A stretch of 64,000 bases of DNA from Aeromicrobium sp. (lineage in GTDB: Bacteria > Actinomycetota > Coriobacteriia > Anaerosomatales > Anaerosomataceae). Within the stretch, counting starts at the first letter, position 1, and each line of letters opens with the position of its first letter. The notes beneath the pieces were generated by a model. That model did not search any database, was not told the origin of the DNA, and was given only the letters and a program-made list of their open reading frames with translations. This document shows positions 12,175-48,473 of the stretch, in pieces. Location of the stretch: NCBI GenBank assembly GCA_015351705.1, contig JADIIM010000037.1:62001-126000 (forward strand), read 5' to 3'. Position numbers and translations under genes: made by a program.

Positions 12175-12203
12175 TTGTATACCGAACATACGTTCGATAT
12201 ACT
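12175..12203 (+). promoter_or_regulatory. SOS promoter with LexA box inside the spacer
   Basis: -35 TTGTAT (12175-12180), exactly 17 bases, then -10 TATACT (12198-12203). CGAACATACGTTCG lies at 12183-12196, a perfect match to the Gram-positive and actinobacterial LexA consensus CGAAC-N4-GTTCG. It occupies the spacer between the two promoter hexamers, so bound LexA would physically exclude RNA polymerase. It drives the DUF6504-like gene and dnaE2. Directly seen: the hexamers and the palindrome. LexA binding is by established consensus. Confidence 0.9.
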
Positions 12204-12273: not shown

Positions 12274-12711
12274 ATGGGCCGGAACCGCGCGATCAGATCG
12301 TTCGACCCCCGTAAGACCGGGCAGCCGCTCGATCTGTTCACCGCGACCGACACCCGTACGCCGGTGATCATCGAGCTGTTGCGATGTCCCTGGATAGTCC
12401 GTGGGTCCGACCTCGAGCACGGTGATCCGAGCCCTGCGGGAACAGACTCCGGACTCGGCGGGAAGCGGCGTGAGTGGGGAATCGAGGTCGTGTGGGACGG
12501 CGAGCGGGCCGCACCGCGAAGCTTTCTGCTCGATGGACGGCGCTATCCCGTGGACGCGGTGGTGCAGACGTGGGCGATCGAGCGCGCGTGGTGGGACCTG
12601 CGGCGACGCACGAGTCGGCGCTGTTTTCGCGTGCTTGCACGCGGCGGTCTCTACGACCTCGCGTACGACCGCATCGCTAACCGGTGGCTGCTCACCGGCA
12701 TCGTGGACTAG
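12274..12711 (+). CDS. Small DUF6504-like protein of the SOS mutasome locus
   Basis: 145 residues, first gene after the LexA-controlled promoter and 7 bases before dnaE2. The C-terminal half resembles DUF6504, a short actinobacterial family found next to error-prone polymerase genes: PRSFLLDGRRYPVDAV, a WW pair (WAIERAWWDL), then CFRVLARGGLYDLAYD and a final WLLTGIVD. The N terminus carries QPLDLF at residues 17-22 in a charged, probably flexible segment, close to the QLxLF type of sliding-clamp-binding motif. AAAGGA precedes the ATG by 8 bases. No enzyme motif is seen. A clamp-tethered accessory factor for DnaE2 is a plausible role, but inferred. Family assignment is from memory of the pattern. 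Confidence 0.75.
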   Translation: MGRNRAIRSFDPRKTGQPLDLFTATDTRTPVIIELLRCPWIVRGSDLEHGDPSPAGTDSGLGGKRREWGIEVVWDGERAAPRSFLLDGRRYPVDAVVQTWAIERAWWDLRRRTSRRCFRVLARGGLYDLAYDRIANRWLLTGIVD

Positions 12712-12718
12712 AGCCGTC

Positions 12719-15700
12719 ATGGCGGGCTTCGTACATCTCCACGTGCACTCGCACTTCAGCTTCATGGACGGTGCCGCGTCGCCCGCTGCGCTGCTCCAGC
12801 ATGCGGCGGGGTATGGCATGGGCGCGCTCGCGCTCACCGACCACCAGGGACTCTACGGTGCCATCCGCTTCTACCGTGCGGCGCTTGAGGCGGGCGTGAA
12901 GCCGATCATCGGTGCCGAGATCGTGATCGAGGCCGCGGGACTCAAGGCCGACGCCGCGATCGAGGGCGACCTGCCACCCGGGCTACGGTTGCCGCTCTCG
13001 GCGCCGGTGGGCTTCGGTCGGGCGGCCGGCGCGGGCTTCCACCTCACGCTGCTCGCGCAGGACATCACCGGCTATCGCAACCTGTGCCGGTTGCTTTCAC
13101 GTACCCACGTGCGCGCCGGCGACGAGCCGTCGGTGGTCACGCTCGCCGATCTCGAGCAGTGCTCGGACGGCCTCATCGGCCTTTCGGGTTGCCCATGCGG
13201 GGAGGCGGGCTCGGCGGTGCTCACCGGCCTCGGTGCGCGCAGTGAGCGGGCGCTCCGCCGTCTGGCACGCTGCTTCGCCCCGGGCAACTTCTACGTGGAG
13301 CTCATGCACCTGCTCACGCCCGACTCTCCGCGTTACATCGCCTCGCTCGTGGCGCTTGCCGGGCGATGCGGGCTGCCGGTGGTCGCCACCAACAACGTCC
13401 ACTATGCGAAGCGGCGCGACTTCCGCATCCACGACGTGCTTGCTTCGGCAGGAGCGCGCACGATGCTTCCGGGGCCGTACGACCGCCCCAACGCCGAACT
13501 CTGGCTCAAGCCCGCCGGTGAGATGCGACGGCTCTTCGCCGACGTGCCGCAGGCGTGTGACGCCACGCTCGAGATCGCCGAGCGCTGCTCGCTCGACCTT
13601 GGCCTCGGCTCGTTCCACTTCCCGGCGGCCGACGTGCCGAGGGGGGAGACGCCGTACTCCGTGCTCTCCAAGGCCGCCTGGCGCGGGCTGGAGCAACGCT
13701 ACCGGCCGGTCACGCCCGAAGCGGTCAGGAGGCTGCAGTACGAGCTCAGCGTCATCCAGGATCTCGGCTTCCCGGAGTACTTCCTCACGGTGAAAGACAT
13801 CGTGGACTTCGCCAAACGCGAGGGTATCCGCTGTAGCGGGCGGGGGAGCGCGGGCGATTCGATCGTCACGTACGTGCTCGGCATCACCGACGCCGACCCC
13901 ATCGCGCACGACCTGCTCTTCGAGCGCTTCCTGAATCCCGAGCGGCGGCAGATGCCTGACATCGACGTGGACTTCGACTCGCGCCGTCGCGACGAGGTGA
14001 TCGCGTACATCTACGAACGGTTCGGGCACGACCATGTCGCGATGGTGGCCACCGTCAACACCATGACGGCCCGGAGCGCCGTGCGCACGGCAGCCAAAGC
14101 ACTCGGCCATACACCCGATGAGATCAACGCGTTCTCGCGCTACCTGCCGTGGGTGAGCGCGCACCGGCTCCCCGAGGTGCTCGAGACGTACCCTGAATGC
14201 CGCGACCATCCACTGCTCGCGCCAAAGCACCAGTTACTCGTGGAACTTGCGACCGAGCTCGACCACACGCCCATGCACCTCGGCACGCACCTCGGCGGGT
14301 TCATCATCACGCGCGAGCCTATCGATAGCTGGATGCCGCTGCAGTGGGCGGCCAAAGGTGTTGTGGTCTCGCAGTACGACAAGGACGACATCGAGGCGCT
14401 CGGCCTGGTGAAGATGGACATCTTGGGACTCCGCACCCACTCGGCCATCAGCGACACGGTGCGGATGGCGCGTGAACGGGTGGGCGAGGCCGCGGTGCCC
14501 GAGCCGTTCGAGTTGCCGCACGACGACCCGCGCGTGTACGCCACGATCGCCGCGGCCGACACCGTGGGGATGTTCCAGCTCGAGAGCAGCGGTCAGCGCA
14601 ATCTCGCGATGCGCCTCAAGGAACGCGACTTCGAGGACATCATCGCCGCGATCTCGCTCTTCCGCCCCGGCCCGCTCGAGGCCGAGATGATCACACCGTT
14701 CATCCGCAGGCGCCACGGCATCGAACCGGTCACGGTGCCACATCCGGCGATGGGCGAGGTGCTGCGTTCGAGCTACGGCGTGATCGTCTACCAGGAGCAG
14801 GTGCTGCAGGTCGCCCAGGCCGTGGCCGGCTTCACACTCGCCGAGGCCGACTCGCTCCGGCGGGCGATGACCAAGGGCCGTAGTCGTGCGGCGATGGAGG
14901 CTATCAAGACACACTTCGTGGAACGCGCGTGCTCACTCGGCGTCACGCACGACGTGGCCGAGGAGGTCTTCCGGCAGCTCGAGGGGTTCGCAGCGTACGG
15001 CTTCTGCAAGGCGCATGCGGCGTGCTTCGCGGTGGTCTCGTACGCCACCGCCTGGCTCAAGACCTACTACCCGGCCGAGTTCGCCTCGGCGATCTTGAAC
15101 AACGAGCCGATGGGCTTCTACAGCCCGCGGGTCGTGCTCGACGACGTGCGGCGCCACGGTATCAGCGTGCTGCCGCCGCACATCAACGCCTCTTCGGCGG
15201 AGTTCACGGTGGAGCAGGACGGGGGCGCGGTGCGCGTCGGCCTCGGGAGCCTGCTTCACATGACCTCGCGCCTGCTGTCTGTGCTGGAAGCCGAGCGGGC
15301 CGTACGCCCGTTTGCCGACCTCGCCGACTTCCTCAAGCGGACGCGCGCCGAAGAGCCGGCCGCACGAAGCCTCATACGCGTCGGGGCTCTCGACGGCCTG
15401 GGGATGACCGATGCCGGACGCCCGCCCACGCGCGACGAGATGCTCGCGCTCGTGCCGGAGCTCAAGGCGGTCATCGCCAGGCAGGGCGTGGCCGGTGACG
15501 ACACGCTGCTGATCGCACCTGCGCGTGCGCGGGGGCCTGTCGACACCGGTCACGTCTCGGGCTGGACGCCCGCGATGCGGCTCTCGGCCGAGCTCGAGTG
15601 CCTCGGGCTCGCCATCACCGCGCACCCGCTCTCACTCGCGCGGGCCGACCTCGAGCGGCGCGGGGTCACCTGGGCGCGCGACCTGCCCGCGTGTGACGAC

Positions 15701-16069
15701 CGCCAGCGCATCCGCGTATGCGGCGTGCGGGAGCGCGCGCAGACGCCCCGGACGCGCTCAGGGAAACGCACATGCTTCCTCACGATGGAGGACCCCACCG
15801 GCTTGATCGACGTGGTCGTCTTCGAGGACGCGCTCAACCGCTACGGCGACGTGATCGTGAAGAACCGCGCGTACCTCGTGGAGGGGATGCTGCAGAACAA
15901 CTGCGAGCGCGGCATCGCGCTCATCGCCGAGCTGATCGAGCCGTACGTGGTCCGCGATGACCAACGAGAACTCGTGCGCCTGAGGCGTGGAGTGGGCGCC
16001 GGCCCGCTCGGCCCCACGCTCGGCGGAGCAGGGGCGCCTGAGAGCGAGTGCGGGGAGGCCATTGCGTAG
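12719..16069 (+). CDS. dnaE2: Error-prone DNA polymerase III alpha subunit DnaE2
   Basis: C-family polymerase of 1116 residues used for damage-induced mutagenesis. N-terminal PHP domain begins HLHVHSHFSFMDG (H6, H8, H10). The palm has PDIDVDFDSRRRDEVI with the catalytic Asp pair at about D416 and D418; KAHAACFAVVSYATAWLKTYYP lies in the fingers; a C-terminal OB-fold domain spans about 980-1095 (CFLTMEDPTG, VVVFED). The position behind a LexA box, the short length and the small neighbouring gene distinguish it from the replicative DnaE1. ImuA and ImuB, the usual partners, are not in the window; a DinB-type polymerase converges on it. ATG at 12719 starts at the conserved PHP start. Confidence 0.92.
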   Translation: MAGFVHLHVHSHFSFMDGAASPAALLQHAAGYGMGALALTDHQGLYGAIRFYRAALEAGVKPIIGAEIVIEAAGLKADAAIEGDLPPGLRLPLSAPVGFGRAAGAGFHLTLLAQDITGYRNLCRLLSRTHVRAGDEPSVVTLADLEQCSDGLIGLSGCPCGEAGSAVLTGLGARSERALRRLARCFAPGNFYVELMHLLTPDSPRYIASLVALAGRCGLPVVATNNVHYAKRRDFRIHDVLASAGARTMLPGPYDRPNAELWLKPAGEMRRLFADVPQACDATLEIAERCSLDLGLGSFHFPAADVPRGETPYSVLSKAAWRGLEQRYRPVTPEAVRRLQYELSVIQDLGFPEYFLTVKDIVDFAKREGIRCSGRGSAGDSIVTYVLGITDADPIAHDLLFERFLNPERRQMPDIDVDFDSRRRDEVIAYIYERFGHDHVAMVATVNTMTARSAVRTAAKALGHTPDEINAFSRYLPWVSAHRLPEVLETYPECRDHPLLAPKHQLLVELATELDHTPMHLGTHLGGFIITREPIDSWMPLQWAAKGVVVSQYDKDDIEALGLVKMDILGLRTHSAISDTVRMARERVGEAAVPEPFELPHDDPRVYATIAAADTVGMFQLESSGQRNLAMRLKERDFEDIIAAISLFRPGPLEAEMITPFIRRRHGIEPVTVPHPAMGEVLRSSYGVIVYQEQVLQVAQAVAGFTLAEADSLRRAMTKGRSRAAMEAIKTHFVERACSLGVTHDVAEEVFRQLEGFAAYGFCKAHAACFAVVSYATAWLKTYYPAEFASAILNNEPMGFYSPRVVLDDVRRHGISVLPPHINASSAEFTVEQDGGAVRVGLGSLLHMTSRLLSVLEAERAVRPFADLADFLKRTRAEEPAARSLIRVGALDGLGMTDAGRPPTRDEMLALVPELKAVIARQGVAGDDTLLIAPARARGPVDTGHVSGWTPAMRLSAELECLGLAITAHPLSLARADLERRGVTWARDLPACDDRQRIRVCGVRERAQTPRTRSGKRTCFLTMEDPTGLIDVVVFEDALNRYGDVIVKNRAYLVEGMLQNNCERGIALIAELIEPYVVRDDQRELVRLRRGVGAGPLGPTLGGAGAPESECGEAIA

Positions 16070-16162: not shown

Positions 16163-17368
16163 TCACTCCTGCTCTTCAGACTCGTGCTCGAGATGTCCGA
16201 AGCCGATCGCGTCCTCACCAAAACGCTCGCGCACGCGATCGATGCTCTCGGCGAGCGCTCGGGAGCGTTGTCGCTCCTCGGCGGGCGTCGGTGCGAACAA
16301 GTCGAGTTGCTCGGCGGGTGCCGAGAACCCCGACACACCGAACCCGAGCAACCGCAGACCCGCCCCGGGTGTCCACACACGGCGCACCAGATCGAGCGCA
16401 GCGGGGACGAGCTCGGCCTCGAGGTCGGTCGGCGAGGGGAGTGTCTCGCTTGCACTGCGCGTGGTGAAGTCGCCGTAGCGTACCTTGACCGTCACGGTCC
16501 GTCCGGCCAGCTCCGCACGACGCAGACGTGACGCCACCTTGATGGCCAGGTCACGCAGCGCCGGTTCCACCTCGGCCCACTGCCGGATGTCCGTGGCGAA
16601 GGTGTGCTCGTGCGAGACCGACTTCACCGACCGTCCTTCGCCCACGGGTCGGTCGTCGATGCCCGCCGCTTTGCGCACGACGTCCGGCCCCCACGAGCCG
16701 AGGAGGTCCAGTGCCGTGTGCTCGTCGAGCGCAGCTAGTTGTCCGAGCGTCTTGATGCCCGCAGCACGCAGCCGCGATGCCGTGGACTGCCCGATCCCCG
16801 AAAGGGCGGTGACGGGCATCGGAGTGAGGAAGGACGCCTCGTCGCCAGGCCGGACCACCGTGATCCCGTGAGGCTTCTCGTGATCGGACGCGATCTTCGC
16901 CACCGTCTTGGACGTGGCCACACCCAGCGAACAGGACAGGCCGAGGGCGTCCACGTGACCCTGGATCGCGCGCGCGACATCTGCGGGGTCCGGATCCTCG
17001 GAGCGGACAGGGGTCACGTCGAGATACGCCTCGTCTATCGACACCTGCTGGACGCGCGGTGTGAACGATCGGAGGATCTCCATCACGCGGTCCGAAAGCT
17101 CCCGGTAACGCGCGAAGCGCGCGGGCGCCCAGATGGCATCCGGGCATCGCCTGGCCGCCTGAGCAGAGGGCATCGCGGAGTGCACCCCGTAACGTCGTGC
17201 CTCGTACGACGCGGTCGCAACGACGCCGCGGCCCTTCGCAGACCCGCCGACGATCACGGGCAGTCCACGCCAGTCAGGGTGGTCGAGTTGCTCGACAGCG
17301 GCGAAGAAGGCGTCCATGTCCACGTGGACTACGCCGCGTGCGTTCCAGGTGTCGCGTGTCTCAGTCAT
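16163..17368 (-). CDS. dinB: DNA polymerase IV (Y family)
   Basis: Translesion polymerase of 401 residues. The palm motif VDMDAFFAAVE (D17), YGVHSAMP near 60 and the catalytic SIDE (D112 and E113) are intact, so it should be active, unlike ImuB. Helix-hairpin-helix and little-finger regions follow, then QLDLF at 354-358, a textbook clamp-binding pentapeptide, and a 43-residue tail. Minus strand, converging on dnaE2. TACACT (17380-17375 on the minus strand) lies only 6 bases before the ATG, suggesting a leaderless mRNA. No LexA box is seen upstream, so it may not be SOS-induced. Confidence 0.93.
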   Translation of the reverse strand: MTETRDTWNARGVVHVDMDAFFAAVEQLDHPDWRGLPVIVGGSAKGRGVVATASYEARRYGVHSAMPSAQAARRCPDAIWAPARFARYRELSDRVMEILRSFTPRVQQVSIDEAYLDVTPVRSEDPDPADVARAIQGHVDALGLSCSLGVATSKTVAKIASDHEKPHGITVVRPGDEASFLTPMPVTALSGIGQSTASRLRAAGIKTLGQLAALDEHTALDLLGSWGPDVVRKAAGIDDRPVGEGRSVKSVSHEHTFATDIRQWAEVEPALRDLAIKVASRLRRAELAGRTVTVKVRYGDFTTRSASETLPSPTDLEAELVPAALDLVRRVWTPGAGLRLLGFGVSGFSAPAEQLDLFAPTPAEERQRSRALAESIDRVRERFGEDAIGFGHLEHESEEQE

Positions 17369-47981: not shown

Positions 47982-48473
47982 GTGAACCGCGCGATATGCC
48001 CGGGCACGTTCGACCCGGTCACTAACGGACACCTTGACGTCATCGAACGCGCATCGGCGCTGTTCGCCGAGGTGGTCGTTGCGGTGGCCCTCAGTCCGGA
48101 CAAGGGCGGCGGTCCGCTGTTCACCCTCGACGAGCGCTGCGGCTTCATCGAGAGGGCGGTCGCGCATCTCAGCAACGTTGTTGTACGCCCGTTCGACGGA
48201 CTTCTAGTAGAATTCGCACAGGAGATGGACGCGAAGGCCGTGATCAAGGGCCTTCGGGCCGTCACGGACTTTGAACGCGAGTTCCAGATGGCGCAGCTGA
48301 ACTACCGGATCGACAAGACCGTCGAGACGATGTTTATCATGTCCATCCCGGAGTACGCGTATCTCAGTTCATCGGCGGTCAAGGAGATCGCCCGCTACGG
48401 CGGGTCAGTGAAAGGGCTCGTGCCAGACGAAGTATGTGAGGCGCTCGCTTCACGATCGCACCAGTCCCACTAG
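47982..48473 (+). CDS. coaD: Phosphopantetheine adenylyltransferase
   Basis: Penultimate enzyme of coenzyme A synthesis; 163 residues. Nucleotidyltransferase motif PGTFDPVTNGHLDVI (about 6-20), KGLRAVTDFEREFQM near 90-104 and the late YAYLSSSAVKEIARYGG. GTG start. It supplies CoA needed by the acyl carrier and acyl-CoA genes further down. Confidence 0.95.
   Translation: MNRAICPGTFDPVTNGHLDVIERASALFAEVVVAVALSPDKGGGPLFTLDERCGFIERAVAHLSNVVVRPFDGLLVEFAQEMDAKAVIKGLRAVTDFEREFQMAQLNYRIDKTVETMFIMSIPEYAYLSSSAVKEIARYGGSVKGLVPDEVCEALASRSHQSH

Follow-up and report, generated by a model that had tools for sequence, protein, structure and literature searches.

An SOS-controlled imuB-C-dnaE2 operon with a putative clamp-binding motif on ImuB-C in an actinobacterial lineage

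Introduction

In the many bacteria without Pol V, mycobacteria among them, SOS mutagenesis hinges on the access of the error-prone polymerase DnaE2 to the sliding clamp. To our knowledge, no structure has been solved and no function established for ImuB-C, a small domain found alongside DnaE2. In ImuB, a QLPLW motif (residues 352–356) is followed by RecA-NT, a linker and ImuB-C (residues 422–525) (PMC11791113), and the clamp motif of ImuB is essential in mycobacteria (PMC10421592). The ImuB-C barrel, which has no close relative in the PDB, has been modelled on the PHP domain of the mycobacterial DnaE2 (PMC12926913). Timinskas et al. (February 2026; PMC12926913) further described DnaE2 "linked only to ImuB-C" in Actinobacteria, without ImuA or ImuB. 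Here, we analyse a locus of this composition in which a clamp-like motif is found on ImuB-C.

Results

The locus lies in the window, which is the whole stretch of 64,000 nucleotides that was analysed, from a genome of the order Anaerosomatales in the class Coriobacteriia (the order and the class in the following). Matches that carry a name assign the lineage to Coriobacteriia, and two of these records bear the label Anaerosomatales. The operon consists of the following features:

12183–12196, plus strand: LexA (SOS) box CGAACATACGTTCG, a perfect LexA-type palindrome 90 nt upstream of imuB-C
12274–12711, plus strand: imuB-C, a 145-aa ORF for a standalone ImuB C-terminal domain protein (DUF6504) with an N-terminal extension
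12719–16069, plus strand: dnaE2, an error-prone C-family polymerase of 1116 aa, identified by profile matches and by its position in the DnaE2 clade of the tree

The initial annotation had named the 145-residue protein as the SOS partner of DnaE2, and the box upstream of imuB-C, with dnaE2 starting 7 nt downstream of the gene, bears this out. The same box pattern is found in this genome upstream of recA, lexA (three times), uvrA, and a UvrD-like helicase gene. Comparison of the loci of the order revealed a homologous SOS box 46–115 nt upstream of imuB-C in 53 of the 54 with enough upstream sequence, and dnaE2 follows imuB-C on the same strand in all 53 with enough contig. The two genes are separated by 1–32 nt in 48 of these 53 loci, with inserts of 1.1–3.9 kb in three and starts that were not located in two. 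By eye, the insert of about 3.9 kb (L119:3244–7117) contains Xre/RES-type toxin-antitoxin-like ORFs, and the 1.1-kb inserts (L111:3276–4361 and L112:3243–4330) contain a DUF305-like gene and encode a small SHOCT-like protein. A second GAAC-N4-GTTC site of the window, at 48273–48284 within a CoaD-like ORF (47982–48473), probably arose by chance.

The window protein is an ImuB-C and thus belongs to a known domain family. The Pfam model DUF6504 (PF20114) matches residues 73–144 of the 145-aa protein with 29.1 bits (cut-off 24.2) and was matched by all 40 aligned orthologues; the relatives in Agreia and Deinococcus are labelled "DUF6504 family protein" in PLSDB. The start at 12274 is supported by the 53 orthologues checked, each of which has an ATG or GTG at the corresponding position, preceded in most by a Shine-Dalgarno-like sequence. 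Within the protein, the following parts were distinguished:

12322–12339, plus strand: QPLDLF, a putative sliding-clamp-binding motif, residues 17–22
12355–12417, plus strand: conserved helix and PW[IV]xRAS[ED]L segment of the extension, residues 28–48
12475–12705, plus strand: seven-stranded ImuB-C barrel (AlphaFold2), a putative DnaE2-docking domain, residues 68–144

The structure predicted by AlphaFold2 from 40 orthologues agrees with the flexible N terminus and compact C-terminal domain proposed earlier: residues 1–60 are poorly ordered (block means of 48–78) with a short helix at residues 28–37, and residues 68–144 form seven strands with block means of up to 97. The docking role assigned to this barrel is taken from PMC12926913. 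A fold search against the PDB gave no match with E ≤ 0.001, and PADLOC gave no match. A PDB sequence search with the ImuB-C alignment returned nothing but the REST corepressor, a match rejected as chance (E ≥ 0.3). The MGRNxAIKxF segment of the extension, roughly 10 residues, may resemble the N-terminal arm of YolD/YqjX. A RecA-NT hidden in the extension is unsupported, since hhalign against the DinB tails paired the LDLF motif alone (13 columns, probability 11.6).

The absence of imuA and imuB beside dnaE2, pointed out in the initial annotation, extends to the whole genome, a 2.07-Mb assembly that is 96.75% complete. The IMS and IMS_C profiles each match a single gene genome-wide, the DinB gene of the window, so that no ImuB (inactive Y-family core) was found with these models; the NCBIfam ImuA model matches recA only, and the RecA family is represented by one gene. 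An ImuB or ImuA hidden elsewhere in the genome is ruled out by these four models. The genomes of the order contain at most one IMS gene each and thus lack ImuB; because this holds across the order, the missing ImuA and ImuB are unlikely to be due to an assembly gap. Genome-wide, one DUF6504 gene and two DnaE genes were found in the assembly. Across the order, DUF6504 is present in 56 of the 68 genomes, 48 of which have at least two DnaE; in six of the other eight carriers DnaE2 adjoins in the fetched locus, so that the missing polymerase there is DnaE1, and two loci are cut by contig ends. A single DnaE is present in nine of the 12 genomes of the order without DUF6504, and profile searches found neither DUF6504 nor a second DnaE in the 81 class genomes outside the order. 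DUF6504 therefore tracks the second DnaE, and dnaE2 with a standalone imuB-C in a genome without imuA and imuB is the composition of the DnaE2-[ImuB-C] module.

To place the window polymerase, a tree was built with E. coli DnaE1, the DnaE1s of the class, and Rhizobium and Burkholderia DnaE2s encoded in annotated imuA-imuB operons. The polymerase falls inside the DnaE2 clade together with the Rhizobium and Burkholderia DnaE2s (UFBoot 100), where it shares a branch with the DnaE2s found next to a standalone ImuB-C and is separate from the DnaE2A references and a Streptomyces DnaE2. The NCBIfam call between DnaE1 and DnaE2 is ambiguous, with both models under the cut-off. The polymerase has no C-terminal tau-binding domain, the OB-fold match ending at residue 1075 of 1116. 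All nine positions of the PHP metal site are kept in 19 of the 47 DnaE2s of the order, and the other 28, including that of the window, carry a single D-to-N substitution. A PHP metal site this complete is not usual among error-prone polymerases; PMC3919608 mentions a subgroup of actinobacterial DnaE2s in which the site is intact.

Alignment of 55 orthologues indicated that the QPLDLF noticed at residues 17–22 belongs to a conserved order-wide pattern, G-(Q)-P-L-[DE]-L-F. G16 is found in 53 sequences, Q17 in 35 (64%), P18 and L19 in 37 each, and D/E20 in 52; L21 is invariant (55), and F22 is present in 50 (91%) with Leu in the other five. The columns on either side (13–15 and 23–26) are highly variable. 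In the 20 orthologues without Q17 (36%), the accompanying DnaE2s have no compensating motif. A clamp-like motif occurs in 67% of the orthologous extensions by a strict pattern and in 100% by a loose one, compared with 1.6% and 13% of shuffled sequences. The window protein matches the Q-x-[LM]-[SD]-L-F type of clamp motif within a predicted flexible region, with the Gln kept in 64% of the orthologues. QPLDLF is one residue longer than the pentapeptide QL[SD]LF, and its six-residue spacing equals that of QAMSLF, the clamp-binding motif of E. coli delta (PMC2705854). In the clamp motifs of DnaE2 and DnaE3, it is the last two positions that are conserved (PMC3919608).

We further compared the site at which DnaE polymerases usually carry their own clamp motif.

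15485–15520, plus strand: canonical clamp-motif site of DnaE2 (residues 923–934), motif absent (GVAGDDTLLIAP)

This site, between the HhH and OB domains, reads GQ[VT]SMF in the DnaE1s of the class and GVAGDD-L or similar in the DnaE2s of the order, among which the sole regex match (L124) falls within a helix away from the canonical site. For comparison, we collected DUF6504 loci from other Actinomycetota families, 80 in all, of which 57 have DnaE2 nearby. A Q-x-x-[LMFI] hexapeptide such as QLALDL, QLTLTI or QLGLAL occupies the canonical site in 44 of the 45 Actinomycetota DnaE2s beside a minimal ImuB-C (42 by script and two, L286 and L290, by eye, with QLTLAD accepted), whereas a clamp motif is found there in none of the 46 DnaE2s of the order, and these counts, which probably reflect one evolutionary event and hence are not independent, are suggestive of a motif shift rather than statistical proof of it. 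QLPLxL has been reported in some actinobacterial DnaE2s (PMC3919608). An HMM of the extension found only four of the 80 ImuB-Cs of the phylum (L267, L273, L315, and L316), and these, together with a Rubrobacter tropicus plasmid, represent the DnaE2 branches nearest to the order in the tree. In L267 the DnaE2 motif is lost too, and L251, basal in the group, lacks both the extension and the DnaE2 motif. The Rubrobacter-type relatives carry EEPLF or EPLF in the extension, and most of their DnaE2s keep QxELPL, which is an intermediate state. The distribution of these sequences fits a history in which the extension would have been gained and clamp binding would then have moved onto it, a single time.

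Discussion

The most probable explanation, in our view, is that ImuB-C is produced in the SOS response, binds DnaE2 with its barrel and the clamp with QPLDLF, and so tethers the polymerase. The two genes form one operon under LexA repression, and DNA damage would lead to synthesis of both proteins. The barrel (residues 68–144) would bind the PHP domain of DnaE2, as modelled for the homologous domain of ImuB, and QPLDLF in the flexible N terminus would bind the hydrophobic pocket of the clamp; a DnaE2 lacking its own clamp motif would thereby be brought to the fork by ImuB-C. Such a protein would combine the two minimal ImuB functions, tethering to the clamp and docking of DnaE2, in the absence of a Y-polymerase core and of ImuA. 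By analogy with ImuB, we infer both contacts of ImuB-C, with DnaE2 and with the clamp, as well as the mutagenic outcome. The clamp-tethered adaptor proposed in the initial annotation thus stands as the leading hypothesis in view of what was observed, namely the tight SOS-boxed operon, the absence of ImuA and ImuB, the motif conserved through the order, and the vacated site in DnaE2; the missing Gln in 36% of the orthologues speaks against it. The wider proposal, that the clamp motif of DnaE2 moved to ImuB-C in one actinobacterial lineage and left a mutasome of two proteins, where the essential work of ImuB falls to the 145-residue adaptor alone, has in our judgement an even chance of being correct.

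The main rival reading involves the neighbouring polymerase gene:

16163–17368, minus strand: dinB, a Y-family polymerase convergent with dnaE2 and without an SOS box, a possible extra partner
16196–16261, minus strand: RecA-NT-like tail of DinB (RALAESIDRVRERFGEDAIGFG), likeness by eye
16295–16309, minus strand: QLDLF clamp motif of DinB, noticed in the initial annotation and located here at residues 354–358

DinB, apparently an active Y-family polymerase, could be the clamp tether through QLDLF and its RecA-NT-like tail, with the extension of ImuB-C docking elsewhere, in a system of the DnaE2-[ImuB-C]-PolY-RecA type. This four-part type is described in Actinobacteria (PMC12926913), dinB adjoins dnaE2 convergently in all 41 loci of the order whose fetched sequence includes it, and in nearly all of these DinBs a QLxL[FL] motif precedes a RecA-NT-like helix. 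We nevertheless regard this reading as unlikely. None of the 40 loci of the order that could be tested has an SOS box upstream of dinB, compared with 53 of 54 that have one upstream of imuB-C, which speaks against DinB as an SOS co-member; the convergent orientation precludes co-transcription with dnaE2, and DinB persists in genomes of the order that have neither DUF6504 nor a second DnaE. The conserved DLF of the ImuB-C extension would also be left unexplained.

Alternatively, the extension from GRNxAIKxF through LF to PWIxRASEL might serve to dock DnaE2 or some other protein and contain no clamp motif, in which case ImuB-C would act allosterically or target DnaE2 to damaged DNA, and DnaE2 would work clamp-free or reach the clamp via another protein. 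An LF in the extension need not mean clamp binding, because it is present in Rubrobacter-type proteins whose DnaE2s keep their own Q motif; Q17 is variable, the remainder of the extension is conserved too, and DNA binding has been proposed for the ImuB-C barrel (PMC3765255). Against this, the conserved LF, in most cases preceded by Gln and located in an arm predicted as disordered, is in keeping with the known clamp motifs (PMC3919608), and loss of the DnaE2 motif coincides exactly with the lineage that has Gln in the extension, which makes a pure docking arm rather improbable. Finally, short motifs arise often, with strict clamp-like matches at about 0.03 per 145 aa in the six-frame ORFs of the window, but the conservation of QPLDLF through the order between variable flanks makes it very improbable that the motif is a chance sequence without a role in an ordinary operon.

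The tether carried by ImuB-C, which we favor, has to be set beside the systems already described. Like the window, the DnaE2B-[ImuB-C] module of the Arthrobacter alpinus type (PMC12926913) combines DnaE2 with a standalone ImuB-C and has no ImuA or ImuB. The initial annotation had considered a stripped-down, two-part mutasome to be undescribed; this main claim of novelty fails, since the two-part DnaE2-[ImuB-C] composition is already published in PMC12926913, and what stands is the clamp motif on ImuB-C. In the minimal DnaE2-[ImuB-C] examples sampled (A. alpinus itself was not among them), ImuB-C lacks an extension and DnaE2 bears the clamp-like motif, whereas in the window ImuB-C bears it. The main text of PMC12926913 does not describe a clamp-bearing ImuB-C extension with the matching loss in DnaE2, and its supplements may list the motif. 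If true, the shift of the motif from DnaE2 to ImuB-C may represent an intermediate stage in the transfer of clamp tethering to accessory factors. With its single motif and small barrel, such a pair of proteins would provide the simplest setting in which to test the role of ImuB-C, and to ask whether clamp binding and DnaE2 docking suffice without ImuA, RecA-NT, or a Y-family core. Lineages can be compared naturally through the complementary gain and loss of the motif. A two-gene DUF6504-dnaE2 operon also occurs on the 64-kb plasmid pCOWG of Agreia sp. COWG (L326), beside an SOS response-associated peptidase gene and with a near-consensus LexA-like palindrome, ATTCGAACACATATTCGA, just upstream.

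With the ImuA-ImuB-DnaE2 mutasome of M. tuberculosis and Caulobacter, the window shares SOS control, DnaE2, and an ImuB-C barrel that follows a clamp motif; it differs in having no Y-polymerase core, no ImuA, and no demonstrable RecA-NT-like helix in the extension. The SOS-regulated ImuY-containing system resembles the window in pairing DnaE2 with a standalone ImuB-C of about 80 aa, but its ImuB-C is minimal and an inactive Y-family protein, ImuY, is added. The Rubrobacter tropicus plasmid (L330) encodes a homologous extended ImuB-C of 147 aa, annotated as "hypothetical protein", whose gene overlaps dnaE2 (annotated as DNA polymerase III alpha) and is divergent from the adjoining lexA. Unlike in the window, its extension reads EEPLF without the Gln and its DnaE2 keeps QQELPL.
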